From Nitrospirales bacterium (GTDB lineage: Bacteria; Nitrospirota; Nitrospiria; Nitrospirales; UBA8639), in assembly GCA_029261295.1 (NCBI GenBank), contig JAJDBP010000002.1, forward strand, positions 310,001 through 374,000: DNA of 64,000 nucleotides, in the 5' to 3' direction. Each line of letters starts with the position of its first letter. Position 1 is the stretch's first letter. Shown here piece by piece: positions 39,445 through 47,231 of the stretch. Under the pieces are notes generated by a model, which ran no database searches, had not been told where the DNA came from, and worked only from the letters and a program-made list of their open reading frames with translations. The translations under genes were made by a program, and so were the position numbers.

Positions 39445-40635
39445 TTGATAATGGACCCTTTTTACAGAATTCAACGACTTCCTGGGTACGTCTTTACCCA
39501 AGTTCAAGACTTGAAGCTTCAAGCTCGAAAGCGAGGTGAGGATATTATTGATCTTGGAATGGGTAATCCTGATCAGCCAACTCCCCCTCATATTGTGGAG
39601 AAATTAATTGAAGCGGCTCAGAATGGACGAAATCACCGGTATTCGGCTTCCCGAGGTATTACTAAATTACGGCATGCGATTTGTGATTGGTATCAACGAA
39701 AATATGATGTCACGTTGGACCCAGAGACCGAATCGATCGTAACCCTAGGTGTCAAGGAAGGGTTAGCTCATCTTGCTTTGGCCATTGTGGGGCCTGGCGA
39801 TGTGGTTCTAGCACCGACTCCGACATACCCAATACACATGTATTGCGTCATTATTGCTGGAGGGGAAGTCCGTGGAGTGGGATTGGGCCCTGACACTGAT
39901 TTTTTTGAAAACCTCACGAAGGCTTTTAAGCAAACCCAACCGGCTCCGAAGGCCCTAATTATTAGTTTCCCCCACAATCCAACCACACAGGTGGTGGATC
40001 TCGAATTTTTCAAGAAAGTTGTTGAGTTTGCTTTGGAACACAATGTCTGGGTTATTCACGATTTAGCCTATGCCGACCTTGTATTTGATGGATATCGAGC
40101 TCCGAGTCTGTTGCAAATTCCTGAAGCAAAAAAAATTGGGGTAGAATTTTATTCGTTATCCAAAAGTTATAATATGCCTGGGTGGCGCGTTGGATTTTGT
40201 GTCGGAAATCCTGAACTCATTGGCGCGTTAACTCGCGTCAAAAGTTACTTGGATTATGGGATGTTTCAGCCGATTCAAATTGCCAGTATTATTGCCCTCA
40301 ATGGACCACAAGATTGTGTCAAAGATATTGTGGGATTGTATGAGCAACGACGAAATGCCTTGGTTCGTGGCCTTAATCGAATTGGATGGCCGATAGATTA
40401 TCCTCGTGCCACGATGTTTGCTTGGGCTAAAATCCCAGAACCTTATCTTGGGATGGGGTCATTAGAATTTTCCAAGTTCTTACTTCGTGAAGCCAAAGTT
40501 GCGGTGTCACCGGGCATCGGATTTGGTGAGGGCGGTGATGAATATGTACGGTTTGCCCTTGTTGAAAACCAACAGCGAATCTTTCAGGCTGTCCGTGGGA
40601 TTCGGCAGGCCTTGAAATTAGGAGAAGACACATAA
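39445..40635 (+). CDS. PLP-dependent aminotransferase (AlaC/DapL-like)
   Basis: [39 protein letters not shown]. Confidence 0.88.
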
Positions 40636-41945
40636 TGAACCAGGCCGTGAAGGTAGGACTGATTGGGTTTGGCACCGTTGGTTCAGGTGTGGTGAAAATT
40701 CTGCAAGATAATGCCAGCCTCATTGCTCGGCGAGTTGGTCAAAGCGTGAATCTCGCCAAAATTGCGGATTTGGATATCACGACAGATCGAGGCGTAGCGG
40801 TGCCTTCAGGTGTTTTGACGACGAATGTCAATGATATTCTAGACGATCCTGAAATAGACATTGTAGTGGAATTGATCGGCGGTCATGTGCCTGCCAAGCG
40901 TTTCATTCTCCAAGCCTTATCAACCCAAAAAGGTGTTGTGACTGCAAATAAGGCCTTGTTAGCGGATCATGGTGAAGAAGTGTTTGAAGCGGCCTTTAAG
41001 TCAAAATCGGATCTGGGATTTGAAGCCAGTGTGGGTGGGGGAATCCCCATTATCCGATCGTTGACCGAAGGATTGGCAGGCAATCATCTAACGTCGATTA
41101 CCGGTATTATGAATGGAACATCAAACTATATTTTAACGAGAATGACTCAGGAGGGGCGAAATTTTGGTGATATTTTGCAAGAAGCCACACGAGAGGGCTA
41201 TGCAGAAGCTGACCCTTCCTTAGACATTGAGGGCATTGATGCCGCCCACAAATTGGTGATCATGGTAAACTTGGCTTATGGAACACCGGTGCCAATGGAT
41301 GCTGTGTACACCGAAGGCATTTCAAAAATTTCCACTGTGGATATTGCATTTGCCAGAGAATTGGGCTTTACCATTAAATTATTAGGAATTGCGAAATTTC
41401 AAGACCAAGTCATCGAGGCGCGTGTGCATCCGACTCTTGTTCCTACGGATTCTCCAATCGCCCAGGTCCATGGTGTGTATAACGCGATTCATTTAGTGGG
41501 TGACGCAGTGGGTGACATTGTCCTGTATGGGCAGGGTGCGGGCTCTCTACCCACGGCAAGTGCGGTAGTCGGGGATATTATTGATTTAGCTCGAAACCGA
41601 ATCAGGGGATCTTCTTCCAGGATACCGGCAACTTCTTTTCAATGGGAGTCTCGCCAACCCCTAACAATAAAGCCGATGCCGGATATAGAGAGTCGGTACT
41701 ATTTGCGTTGTATGGTCAAAGATGAACCGAGGGTCCTCTCGACTATTTCTGGTATTCTAGGCCAGCAGGGAATCAGTATTTCATCAGTCTTGCAAAAAGG
41801 CCGAAAACAAGGGCAGCCCGTTCCATTGATCATTTTGACTCATCATTCAAGTGAGCGTGGCATTCAATCGGCCCTTCAGGATATAAACGCCCTTTCAATC
41901 GTGGCAGAACCTACCACATTGCTAAGAATGGAAGGGGGAGAATAA
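40635..41945 (+). CDS. hom: homoserine dehydrogenase
   Basis: GLIGFGTVGSGVV, GIMNGTSNYILTRM, C-terminal ACT domain. Confidence 0.96.
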   Translation: MNQAVKVGLIGFGTVGSGVVKILQDNASLIARRVGQSVNLAKIADLDITTDRGVAVPSGVLTTNVNDILDDPEIDIVVELIGGHVPAKRFILQALSTQKGVVTANKALLADHGEEVFEAAFKSKSDLGFEASVGGGIPIIRSLTEGLAGNHLTSITGIMNGTSNYILTRMTQEGRNFGDILQEATREGYAEADPSLDIEGIDAAHKLVIMVNLAYGTPVPMDAVYTEGISKISTVDIAFARELGFTIKLLGIAKFQDQVIEARVHPTLVPTDSPIAQVHGVYNAIHLVGDAVGDIVLYGQGAGSLPTASAVVGDIIDLARNRIRGSSSRIPATSFQWESRQPLTIKPMPDIESRYYLRCMVKDEPRVLSTISGILGQQGISISSVLQKGRKQGQPVPLIILTHHSSERGIQSALQDINALSIVAEPTTLLRMEGGE

Positions 41946-41977: not shown

Positions 41978-43045
41978 ATGCGAACAATGATACCCTGGCG
42001 TGGAATAATTGAGGAGTACCGCAAATTCTTACCGGTGAGCGATCAGACTCCTATTGTGTCCTTGCAAGAGGGAAATACTCCTCTCATTCCTGCTACACGT
42101 TTGGCTAAGACCATTTGCCCTGGGAGAGAGCTCTTTTTAAAAATAGAAGGTGCCAATCCTACAGGGTCGTTTAAAGACAGAGGTATGACCATGGCGGTTT
42201 CTAAGGCCATGGAAAAGAAAGCCAAAGGCTTGATGTGTGCATCAACTGGCAACACTTCAGCCGCTGCCGCGGCCTATGCAGCTAAAGCTGGGCTGCCAGC
42301 CTATGTCGTTGTTCCTGCTGGGAAGATTGCTTTAGGAAAACTGACTCAAGCACTCATGCATGGCGCCAGGGTTATCCAAATAGAGGGAAACTTTGATCAG
42401 GCCCTCACAATTGTCAAAGCGCTCTGTGAGGAAACGGCAATTGAATTGGTCAATTCCATAAATCCCTTTCGGTTGGAAGGTCAAAAAACAGCGGCTATGG
42501 AAGTATGTGATCAACTTGGGGGTGCCCCCGTGATTCATGCGTTACCAGTTGGCAATGCCGGAAATATTACGGCCTATTGGCGTGGCTATTGCGAATATAA
42601 AGAGGCTGGACAAACGCAAGGTTTGCCTCGTATGTTTGGGTTCCAAGCTGAGGGAGCTGCTCCTCTTGTCAGAGGCCATGTTGTGGATTCACCTCAAACG
42701 GTAGCCTCCGCAATTCGTATTGGAAATCCTGCAAGTTGGACCTTTGCCCTTCAAGCCGTTGAAGAATCAGATGGATGCCTTCACATGGTTTCCGATGAGG
42801 AAATCCTTCAGGCCTATCAAATGGTCGCTTGTGAAGAAGGTGTATTTTGTGAGCCGGCCTCGGCCGCGTCTCTTGCTGGAGTTTACAAGCTTAATCGGGA
42901 AGGCCTCTTACCTCCCGAAGGTCCTATCGTCTGTACGTTAACCGGCCATGGGTTGAAAGATCCTGATACCGGATTGTCTGTCTCCTATCGACCGGTAACG
43001 GTTCCTGCAACTCGTGAAGCTGTTGCCGCCCAATTAACGGCCTAA
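41978..43045 (+). CDS. thrC: threonine synthase
   Basis: EGNTPLIPATRL, EGANPTGSFKDRGMTMA. Confidence 0.96.
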   Translation: MRTMIPWRGIIEEYRKFLPVSDQTPIVSLQEGNTPLIPATRLAKTICPGRELFLKIEGANPTGSFKDRGMTMAVSKAMEKKAKGLMCASTGNTSAAAAAYAAKAGLPAYVVVPAGKIALGKLTQALMHGARVIQIEGNFDQALTIVKALCEETAIELVNSINPFRLEGQKTAAMEVCDQLGGAPVIHALPVGNAGNITAYWRGYCEYKEAGQTQGLPRMFGFQAEGAAPLVRGHVVDSPQTVASAIRIGNPASWTFALQAVEESDGCLHMVSDEEILQAYQMVACEEGVFCEPASAASLAGVYKLNREGLLPPEGPIVCTLTGHGLKDPDTGLSVSYRPVTVPATREAVAAQLTA

Positions 43046-43114: not shown

Positions 43115-44350
43115 GTGAAGAAAACGATCATGGTTCACATCGATGGCATGTCTGCTCATTCCTTTGAGGAGTTGGGCACTCGTACTATTTTGCAAGCGGC
43201 CAATATCCCGCATTTTGACCATTTGGCCCAACATGGTGAATTGGGGCATTTAGGAATTCCTCATGAATCTCGTGCTTTTGCCGGAGAATTGGCTTTTTTA
43301 GGTCTGTTAGGTTATGAGACGCAGAAATGGTATGGCGGCCCTGGAGCCTTTGAAGCCATGAATTTAGAAGTGGTTCTCGATCGAAATGACGTGGCCTTTT
43401 TGTGTGACTTTGTGACATTGCGGGCCGAAGATGGTTGGGGAGATGGGAAAAAACTTGGACCAGCCTTAGTGATGGATGATGTGTCTGGTGGAGAGTTGGA
43501 GACTGAAGAGGCACGCGAATTAATTGATGCCATTAACGAACAATTAGTGTCAGAAAATATTCAGTTTTATTTCGGGCATCATGCCCGTCATCTCATGGTT
43601 TGGGTCGGTGGAAACGTTAAAATTGGTTGCCGGAATCCCCAGGAAGCTTTAGGCCAATCCATTGAGCCGTATCTCCCAACAGGAGAGGGGACTCAAATAT
43701 TGCGCGAATTTATGGAAGCCTCTCGTATGATTCTGCGGCATCACTCCGTGAATCAAGAGCGGGTCAATGCTGGGTTGAAGCCAGCAAATTGCTTGTGGCC
43801 ATGGGGACAGAGTAAGCCGGTAGAATTGACGCCGTTGATAGAACGGTGGCCAATCGAAGGTACGGTGGTTTCACAGAGTGGGCCGTATCGTGGGGTTGCT
43901 TTGGCCAGCGGCCTCAAGGTGGTCAAGTCTGAAGATCTTGAGGAGAGTCAACCAGAACCGTTAGGACAAATGGCAAAATTGGCTTCAATGATTTTGGAAA
44001 AACAGGATTTGGCCTGTCTCCATATTCCCTTCTTTTCTTTGTTTCCTAGTCATCGATTGTCCGAACAAGCTGGGATGGTTGTAGAATATCTGGAAAAAAT
44101 TGATGAATATCTCGTTAAATCGTTACAGCAATTCTGTTCGGAAAATGGGAATACTCAGCTTTTTGTCGTGATCACTCCAGGGGCCGGAAATTCGAAAGAG
44201 GGTTCCTCTTCCCCCGCGCCGTTTGTGCTGTATGAAGAGCAAAAAGCTGATAAGCCGATTTCTGAGATAGCGTTTCATGAACATGCAGCTTCGCAGGGTC
44301 CTATTCAACGTGCAGGTAATTTTTTTGATCGGTTTTTCGGGGGGAAATAG
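43115..44350 (+). CDS. ApgM-like (cofactor-independent phosphoglycerate mutase superfamily) protein, degenerate active site
   Basis: Colinear ApgM-like segments: [50 protein letters not shown]; catalytic residues appear substituted. Confidence 0.75.
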
Positions 44351-44355
44351 CTGCT

Positions 44356-45582
44356 ATGGCTTGTTATGTTCAGAAATTTGGTGGGACGTCGGTAGGAAGT
44401 ATCGAGCGTATTCAACACGTGGCTCAGCTTATTGATAAAACCTATCGCGCAGGGCACCAATTAGTGGTGGTCTTATCTGCCATGAGTGGGGAGACGGATA
44501 GGCTTACGAAAATGGCGAGGGAAGTTAGTGCGGATCCTGATGATCGAGAATTAGATGTCTTGCTCTCTTCAGGGGAACGGGTGACGATTGCACTGATGGC
44601 CATGATGCTAAGGAATCTTGGTGTGAAGGCACGATCTTTTACCGGACGACAAGTGGGTATCGTGACAGATGGGGCCCACACCAAGGCTCGGGTTTCCCGC
44701 GTCGATACCCAAAGGGTCTTGGCTGCCTTAAAAGAGGGGGTTGTGCCTATTGTGGCAGGGTTTCAGGGTATTAATGAAGCCTCTGATGTGACGACCCTGG
44801 GACGTGGAGGGTCAGATCTCACCGCAGTGGTCCTAGCCGCCGCGCTTCATGCCGAGACGTGTTTTATTTATACTGATGTGGATGGGGTGTATACCGCTGA
44901 TCCCAATATGGTGCCGACGGCTCGTCGATTGGAAAAAATCTCGTATGAGGAAATGTTAGAATTAGCCAGTTTAGGAGCCAAAGTTTTACAAACACGCTCC
45001 GTGGAGCTGGCCGCGAAACATCAGGTTCCTATGGAAGTGCGATCCAGCTTTCAGGACGGACCGGGAACCCGTGTGGTAAAAGAGGATGCTGATATGGAAC
45101 AAGTCTTAGTTTCAGGGGTAACTGGAGATCGAAATCAGGCCAAAATTACCGTGATTGGGGTCCCGGATCAGCCGGGTATTGCGGCGAAAATGTTTGTGGC
45201 CATTGCGGCAGCCGGGATCAATGTTGATATGATTATTCAAAATGTGAGCCAGGAGTCTTTGACGGACATTTCCTTTACCGTGCCAAGGGGAGATCTCAAG
45301 GCCGCGACCAGTCTGGTTCAAGACCTTGCCAAAGAGGTGGGCGCTCGAACCTTTGAAGTGAATGAAGCTATTGCCAAGGTCTCGTTAGTGGGAGTGGGAA
45401 TGCGGTCTCATTCAGGGGTAGCGGCAAGGATGTTCGCAACCCTTTCTCGAGATGGGATTAATATTATGATGATCAGTACCTCAGAAATAAAAATTTCTTG
45501 TGTGATTGAAGAGAAATATATGGAATCGGCGGTTCGGGGATTACACCAGGAATTCGAATTAGAAAAGCCTACAATCGTTTAA
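44356..45582 (+). CDS. lysC: aspartate kinase
   Basis: [25 protein letters not shown]; two ACT domains. Confidence 0.97.
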
Positions 45583-45638
45583 AACAAGACCTCTTGTATG
45601 AATGCCTCTAGAGGGGTTGATCGGCAAAATTGAGTTCA

Positions 45639-47231
45639 ATGCTTCAGAATCAAAATATTGAAATTTATGATACGACTTTGCGAGATGGGTCGCAGGCCGA
45701 AGACGTGAGTTTTTCGGTGGAAGATAAGGTTCGTATTACTCTCAAGTTGGATGAATTGGGCGTTCATTTCATTGAGGGCGGGTGGCCTGGAGCCAATCCA
45801 AAAGATATCGAATTTTTCCAAGTTATCAAAGCCACTCCGCTTCAACAGGCAAAAATTGTGGCGTTCGGGTCGACGAGGAAAGCTAAAAACTCTGCCAAAG
45901 AAGATCCCACACTTGAGGCTCTGCTTTCCGCTGAAACTGACATTGTGACCATTTTTGGCAAAAGCTGGACGTTGCACGTAACTGAGGCTCTGAGTACGAC
46001 CTTAGACACAAATTTGGAACTCATCGCGGATTCGATTACCTTTCTCAGGTCAAAAGGTCGGCAGGTGTTTTATGATGCCGAACACTTTTTTGATGGCTAT
46101 AAGGCCGATCCCACTTATGCTATGAAAACCCTTGAGGCAGCGATGAAAGCCGGAGCGGAACGCCTGGTATTGTGTGATACCAATGGGGGAACCATGCCTT
46201 GGGAGATTCGGGAGATTGTCTCCGTAGTCAAAGAGGGGTGCTCGGTACCGTTAGGGATTCATGCTCACAATGATGCGGAAATGGGCGTTGCGAATTCCCT
46301 AGTGGCGGTGGAAGCGGGTGTCTCCCATGTTCAGGGAACGATCAATGGCATTGGCGAGCGATGTGGTAATGCAAATCTCTGTTCCATTATGGCGAATTTG
46401 GAATTGAAAATGGGCCGGACCGCATTGGGGGATGGAAAATTATCCAACCTCAGGATGATTTCTCATTATGTGGCGGAAATGGCCAATCTTTTGCCAAATA
46501 AACGACAACCGTATGTGGGAGATACGGCGTTTGCCCATAAGGGGGGAGTTCATATTCATGCGGTGCAAAAAAACCCTCTGACGTATGAGCATGTACAACC
46601 GGAAGAAGTCGGCAATCAACGGAGAGTGCTTATTTCAGATAACAGTGGTCGCAGCGCAGTCTTTAATAAGATTGGGACTTTTGGGGTGGATCTTCCCCAG
46701 GATAATCCCAAAGTTCAGGAACTTTTAGGTTCTTTAAAAAACTTGGAATATGAAGGCTATCAATTTGAAGGTGCTGAAGGATCATTTGAATTACTGGTAC
46801 GTGAAGCCCTTGGAACTCATACCCCATCCTTCGAATTGCTAGGCTGTCGTATTATTGTCGAAAAACGAAAAACTGATGAAGAATCACTATCTGAAGCCAC
46901 CATTAAGGTCAAAGTAGGCGAGGTTGTTGAACATACGGCAGCGGTAGGAGATGGCCCAGTTAATGCGCTTGATCATGCCCTGCGAAAAGCCCTCGAGAAA
47001 TTTTACCCTCAATTGCGGGAGGTCAAACTTCTTGACTATAAGGTGCGAGTGTTAACAGGGCGCCGGGGGACGGGTTCTCGGGTCCGAGTATTAATTGAAT
47101 CGGGTGACCAGAAGGAAAAATGGGGGACGGTTGGGGTATCCGAGAATATAATTGAAGCGAGTTGGCAGGCTTTGGCTGATAGTATTGAATATAAATTAAT
47201 GAAAGAGCAGGAATTGAAGCCCAAGTCTTAA
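45639..47231 (+). CDS. cimA: citramalate synthase
   Basis: [47 protein letters not shown]; LeuA-type C-terminal domain. Confidence 0.93.

Follow-up and report, generated by a model that had tools for sequence, protein, structure and literature searches.

The window analyzed here, a 64,000-nucleotide stretch of the genome of a Nitrospirales bacterium, carries within its threonine operon a degenerate gene of the ApgM/TIGR02535 (ThrB2) type, the product of which has probably been displaced by ThrH and retained under selection as a pseudoenzyme. The role of TIGR02535 proteins as homoserine kinases is still unproven, and their repeated decay beside ThrB or ThrH constitutes independent comparative evidence for that role. 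Furthermore, ThrH is predicted to fill the missing threonine step in the Nitrospirales, the order to which nitrite-oxidising and comammox bacteria belong, and a single tree of this order carries a pseudoenzyme series running from nearly intact to lost. Literature searches, with subscription papers outside their coverage, returned no report of such a pseudoenzyme or displacement in Nitrospira.

A ThrB2-type gene in the threonine operon

The gene is an intact, full-length ORF of 411 aa that runs from a GTG start codon at 43115 to a stop codon ending at 44350 (43115..44350) on the + strand, where all features of the window given below also lie, and it is present as a single copy in its genome. 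These boundaries agree with those of the first-pass annotation, which had also placed the gene between thrC and lysC. Comparison with relatives reveals an operon with the order aat-hom-thrC-apgM-lysC-cimA that is syntenic throughout the order Nitrospirales. The conserved cluster is opened by an aminotransferase gene (aat, 39445..40635) and closed by a gene for a cimA-type synthase (45630..47231), both assigned by synteny and the latter named from its sequence. Between them lie hom (40635..41945), encoding a homoserine dehydrogenase with an ACT domain and syntenic in relatives, thrC (41978..43045), encoding a threonine synthase close to the solved ThrC structures 2zsj, 1uim and 2d1f, and, 5 nt past the stop codon of the pseudoenzyme gene, lysC (44356..45582), encoding aspartate kinase. 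Hom, ThrC and LysC each exceeded their cut-offs in a profile scan of the window. Outside the window, the genome encodes a second threonine-synthase-like PALP protein, 34% identical to ThrC, at G000:C22:68843-69853, about 1.5 kb from a further gene of the PALP family; most of the Nitrospirota searched likewise have a second ThrC-like protein.

The alignment of the protein along its length with ApgM-type mutases, reported in the annotation, is borne out by profile searches. Residues 38-213 (43226..43753) match PF10143 (PhosphMutase, the lid/substrate domain) above the cut-off, with 116.8 bits, and both TIGR00306 (ApgM) and TIGR02535 (ThrB2) are matched over the whole length, with 241 and 229.7 bits that fall short of their membership cut-offs of 320 and 446.3, respectively. 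Descent from TIGR02535 is nevertheless indicated by a graded series that leads through an NS-4-like family (f2) to canonical members, and by synteny, which also supports the position in the threonine operon. An AlphaFold2 model built with 37 homologues has a mean pLDDT of 88.5, and its top Foldseek matches are the archaeal ApgMs 3kd8, 3idd and 2zkt, with E-values of about 1e-27 to 3kd8 and 2zkt. On the basis of this model, the protein is predicted to adopt the ApgM-superfamily fold.

Loss of the active site

Alignment with 30 TIGR02535 members, all from Nitrospirota outside the class, set the metal and nucleophile positions, seven in number (D, S, D, H, D, H and H); we take their ligand identities to be those established for iPGM and ApgM enzymes. 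All 30 of these sequences keep 7/7 positions. The same is true of 42/42 non-Nitrospirales loci in a second set, drawn from another collection; these loci are named as Nitrospirae, Deltaproteobacteria, Peptococcaceae and others, and some organisms may overlap with the first set. None of the Nitrospirales sequences tested keeps 7/7.

The window protein departs from the TIGR02535 ligand set at all positions but one, retaining only D10 (43142..43144). The annotation had deduced from the sequence that the first Asp alone survives, and the proper alignment upholds this site by site. The nucleophile Ser and the next Asp of the canonical GSDV are replaced by Gly57 and Glu58 (43283..43288), the EAPDEAGH metal site reads PFFSLFPS, the late D-H pair is T-P and the final His is Gly, such that the C-terminal half with its alkaline-phosphatase fold (residues 246-411, 43850..44347) has lost all five later ligands. 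The family alignment suggested along with that reading finds the substitutions in all 16 congeners aligned, so that a sequencing error or an artefact of one genome can be rejected. A realignment of ligands elsewhere in the protein was likewise discarded: H313 lies one residue off the EAGH histidine and is not conserved in congeners. Nor is a new catalytic site apparent by sequence, as the newly invariant residues belong to the lid and no fresh cluster of D, H or C ligands is seen.

Graded loss across the Nitrospirales and decay in other Nitrospirota

The number of ligands kept differs among families of the order, amounting to 5-6/7 in the NS-4-like family f2, 2-5/7 and mostly 4-5/7 in the Nitrospiraceae (f3, the loci of which include that of N. 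defluvii, L188), and 0-3/7 in the family of the window (f1). The latter is probably UBA8639, Nitrospira lineage IV, judging from its place in the tree beside the Nitrospiraceae and the description in PMC12342949. In three further lineages (f4, g2 and g4), apgM is gone from the operon and thrC runs directly into lysC; an IQ-TREE phylogeny of ThrC and LysC rooted on outgroups places these three on separate branches. In L052 (genus g5), frameshifts and stop codons have turned apgM into a true pseudogene. Both the lineages without apgM and that of L052 carry ThrH. The ORF is open in nearly all genomes with the gene. Separately, the congener L054 encodes a second, unlinked ApgM-type protein with 6/7 positions (G009:C1:1139525 region) that is absent from the genome of the window.

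Outside the Nitrospirales, the same operon slot holds an intact ThrB2 in outgroups. Two other lineages of the class, f6 (L175) and f10 (L168), have a ThrB above the cut-off and an operon-slot ThrB2 that keeps 0/7 and 4/7 ligands, respectively; in f7 and f8, ThrB is present and ThrB2 is absent from the operon. A counter-example is provided by f5, where ThrB is present and ThrB2 still shows 7/7. ThrB2 thus tends to decay beside another homoserine-phosphorylating enzyme, with f6 and f10 as independent cases, and its decay where such an alternative is present supports the homoserine role proposed for TIGR02535.

Selection and constraint on the lid domain

Pairwise Nei-Gojobori estimates over 19 pairs yielded a median dN/dS of 0.12 for the gene, the N-terminal/lid half being at 0.075 and the C-terminal half at 0.15. 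The gene therefore evolves faster than thrC and lysC (both 0.06), and values around 0.1 rule out a plain pseudogene. Among non-redundant proteins, the mean pairwise identity of the C-terminal half is 30% in f1 and f3 combined versus 63% in active-type relatives, and the overall identity is 45% versus 64.5%; for residues 126-165, the relation is reversed (73% versus 63%). The best 40-residue stretch, residues 130-169 (43502..43621), is more conserved than its counterpart in active-type ThrB2, a result reached by 0 of 2000 column permutations. Within it, R134, N141, Q143, E147 and Q150 have become invariant or almost invariant in both f1 and f3, while R158, H159 and W163 stayed so, as did N213, R216, N225 and W228 beyond it.

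Such a pattern of constraint would be expected if catalysis had been lost and a binding role kept or sharpened. The pseudoenzyme reading, which the first-pass annotation had offered as a possibility, is well supported by the sequence comparisons: despite the loss of the catalytic ligands, purifying selection acts on the gene and residues of the lid do not vary. The residual job of the protein would most likely be non-catalytic, consisting in the binding of a threonine-branch metabolite or of an operon partner (ThrC or LysC). More tentatively, and along the lines of the regulator that the annotation named as the other possibility, it might act as a metabolite-sensing or regulatory subunit, the lid of which could bind homoserine, O-phosphohomoserine or threonine, or dock onto ThrC, LysC or ThrH, and thereby tune threonine/lysine flux.

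Homoserine phosphorylation in the Nitrospirales

The annotation had remarked that no thrB is visible, and a TIGR00191 profile search extends this statement to the whole genome, in which no ThrB exceeds the cut-off and the best match reaches 35.9 bits. Likewise, none was found above the cut-off in 69 Nitrospirales genomes, and ThrB was present in 16/16 class-level outgroups tested. A ThrB diverged below detection can be rejected as far as tested because the weak TIGR00191 matches in the genome of the window belong to other families (IspE, two mevalonate-kinase-like proteins, a heptose-kinase-like protein and a diphosphomevalonate decarboxylase). In G029, a complete genome without apgM of which 2.0 of 2.35 Mb were read, a ThrB profile built from outgroups retrieved one protein, IspE-like by sequence, and there was one clear shikimate kinase. 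The APH-type homoserine kinase profile TIGR00938 had no match in the genome of the window. ThrB2 exceeds the TIGR02535 cut-off in 147/295 Nitrospirota genomes, the sole Nitrospirales member among them being G036 (f2). From these counts, the Nitrospirales appear to have neither ThrB nor ThrB2 in canonical form, whereas most other Nitrospirota have one of them. As a side observation, the mevalonate-kinase-like and diphosphomevalonate decarboxylase genes form a mevalonate-pathway cluster (G000:C19:134237-136377 and G000:C27:30242), beside which the genome carries IspE, of the other isoprenoid route.

ThrH (TIGR02137) exceeds its cut-off in 108/114 Nitrospirales genomes versus 0/181 other Nitrospirota (denominators tallied from the profile-search table), a match with the order that represents one co-occurrence and not many independent trials, given that ThrH was probably gained in a single event. 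Among the six remaining genomes (G167, G171, G262, G282, G304 and G308), three have no match and three a partial one; most of these are small assemblies (1.7-2.5 Mb), and the shortfall possibly reflects assembly gaps. The homologue in the genome of the window, encoded outside the window at G000:C23:32211-32828, scores 278 bits with TIGR02137 (residues 6-201; cut-off 223.4) and 282.8 bits with NF010109, the cut-off of which is 133. Its alignment with P. aeruginosa ThrH (1rku, residues 4-201; E 3e-71) extends from end to end. In vivo, the P. aeruginosa enzyme complements the lack of homoserine kinase and also that of phosphoserine phosphatase; homoserine receives its phosphate from phosphoserine, and ATP-dependent kinase activity is absent (PMC1079889). 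By homology, ThrH would make O-phosphohomoserine in the Nitrospirales as well. Its gene lies outside the threonine operon, at a distance of 41-46 kb in three f3 genomes. None of 12 Nitrospirales genomes tested (e.g. G000, G018, G029 and G053) encodes a SerB above the TIGR00338 cut-off, leaving ThrH as their sole close phosphoserine phosphatase candidate, so ThrH could be retained as a phosphoserine phosphatase only.

Alternative explanations

Two alternatives concern the window protein itself. A slowly decaying relic, kept for its position between thrC and lysC (e.g. by translational coupling), would fit the loss of the gene in three related lineages and its pseudogene form in a fourth, its evolution at a faster rate than that of its neighbors and the short gap to lysC. 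We consider this unlikely, since dN/dS is far below 1, the lid half is nearly as constrained as thrC, a 40-residue lid stretch exceeds active-type homologues in conservation, and the reading frame has stayed open almost wherever the gene occurs. Persistent phosphorylation of homoserine through a rebuilt or metal-independent site is very unlikely. It would be in line with the retention of the gene in the operon under purifying selection, with the conserved lid residues R158, H159, W163, N213, R216, N225, W228 and K234, and with the requirement for the active-type relative BT2402 during growth without threonine (PMC7311316); however, the nucleophile and 6/7 positions are gone, the C-terminal half has dropped to 30% identity, the newly invariant f1 residues map to the lid and the sequence shows no evident replacement metal ligands, and sister lineages with hom and thrC have neither the gene nor ThrB.

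Other alternatives reassign the metabolic step. If homoserine were phosphorylated by another enzyme, be it a kinase resembling shikimate kinase or APH, or through a side activity, ThrH might serve as phosphoserine phosphatase only, as the lack of any other SerB passing TIGR00338 in the 12 genomes would allow, and a shikimate-kinase-like homoserine kinase is on record in Desulfovibrio (PMC5764234). This seems unlikely in view of the empty TIGR00938 search of the genome of the window, of the single clear shikimate kinase and single, IspE-like GHMP match in the 2.0 Mb of G029 that were read, and of the strong, full-length homology of ThrH. It is extremely improbable that threonine derives mainly from glycine and acetaldehyde through threonine aldolase, making a homoserine kinase unneeded: G029 does encode an LtaE homologue (278 bits), but hom and thrC occur in every Nitrospirales lineage checked, thrC has a dN/dS of about 0.06 and its product is close to solved threonine synthases.

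Displacement of ThrB2 by ThrH remains our preferred explanation, with an order of events that we infer as follows. The ancestor of the gene would be a Nitrospirota ThrB2 (TIGR02535) that most likely phosphorylates homoserine outside the order. The Nitrospirales ancestor would have acquired ThrH, a HAD-type phosphoserine:homoserine phosphotransferase, which would supply ThrC with O-phosphohomoserine using phosphoserine as donor and would double as phosphoserine phosphatase. Freed by ThrH, ThrB2 would have lost its two-metal site stepwise, most likely because ThrH took over the reaction; several lineages would then have deleted the gene, and that of the window would have kept a folded pseudoenzyme with a strongly constrained lid domain.

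Comparison with known systems

The window protein shares its fold and domain order with ApgM, the archaeal-type cofactor-independent phosphoglycerate mutase (TIGR00306; 2zkt, 3kd8), but lacks the catalytic site, lies in a threonine operon and scores below the family cut-off. ThrB, the GHMP homoserine kinase (TIGR00191), acts at the same pathway step and co-occurs with a decayed or absent ThrB2 in some Nitrospirota families; in contrast, none was detected above the cut-off in the 69 Nitrospirales genomes. P. aeruginosa ThrH (1rku) is unrelated to the window protein and matches the ThrH encoded elsewhere in the genome, the proposed replacement. A further parallel is with TIGR02535/ThrB2 proteins such as BT2402 of Bacteroides thetaiotaomicron, with which the window protein shares fold, full-length homology and lid residues, as well as, for those of Nitrospirota, operon neighbors. 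BT2402 retains its zinc sites (PMC9765024) and did not rescue an E. coli thrB mutant, though its host requires it to grow when threonine is not supplied (PMC7311316). In contrast to these proteins, the window protein falls below the TIGR02535 cut-off and has lost the nucleophile and metal ligands, in genomes that carry ThrH.
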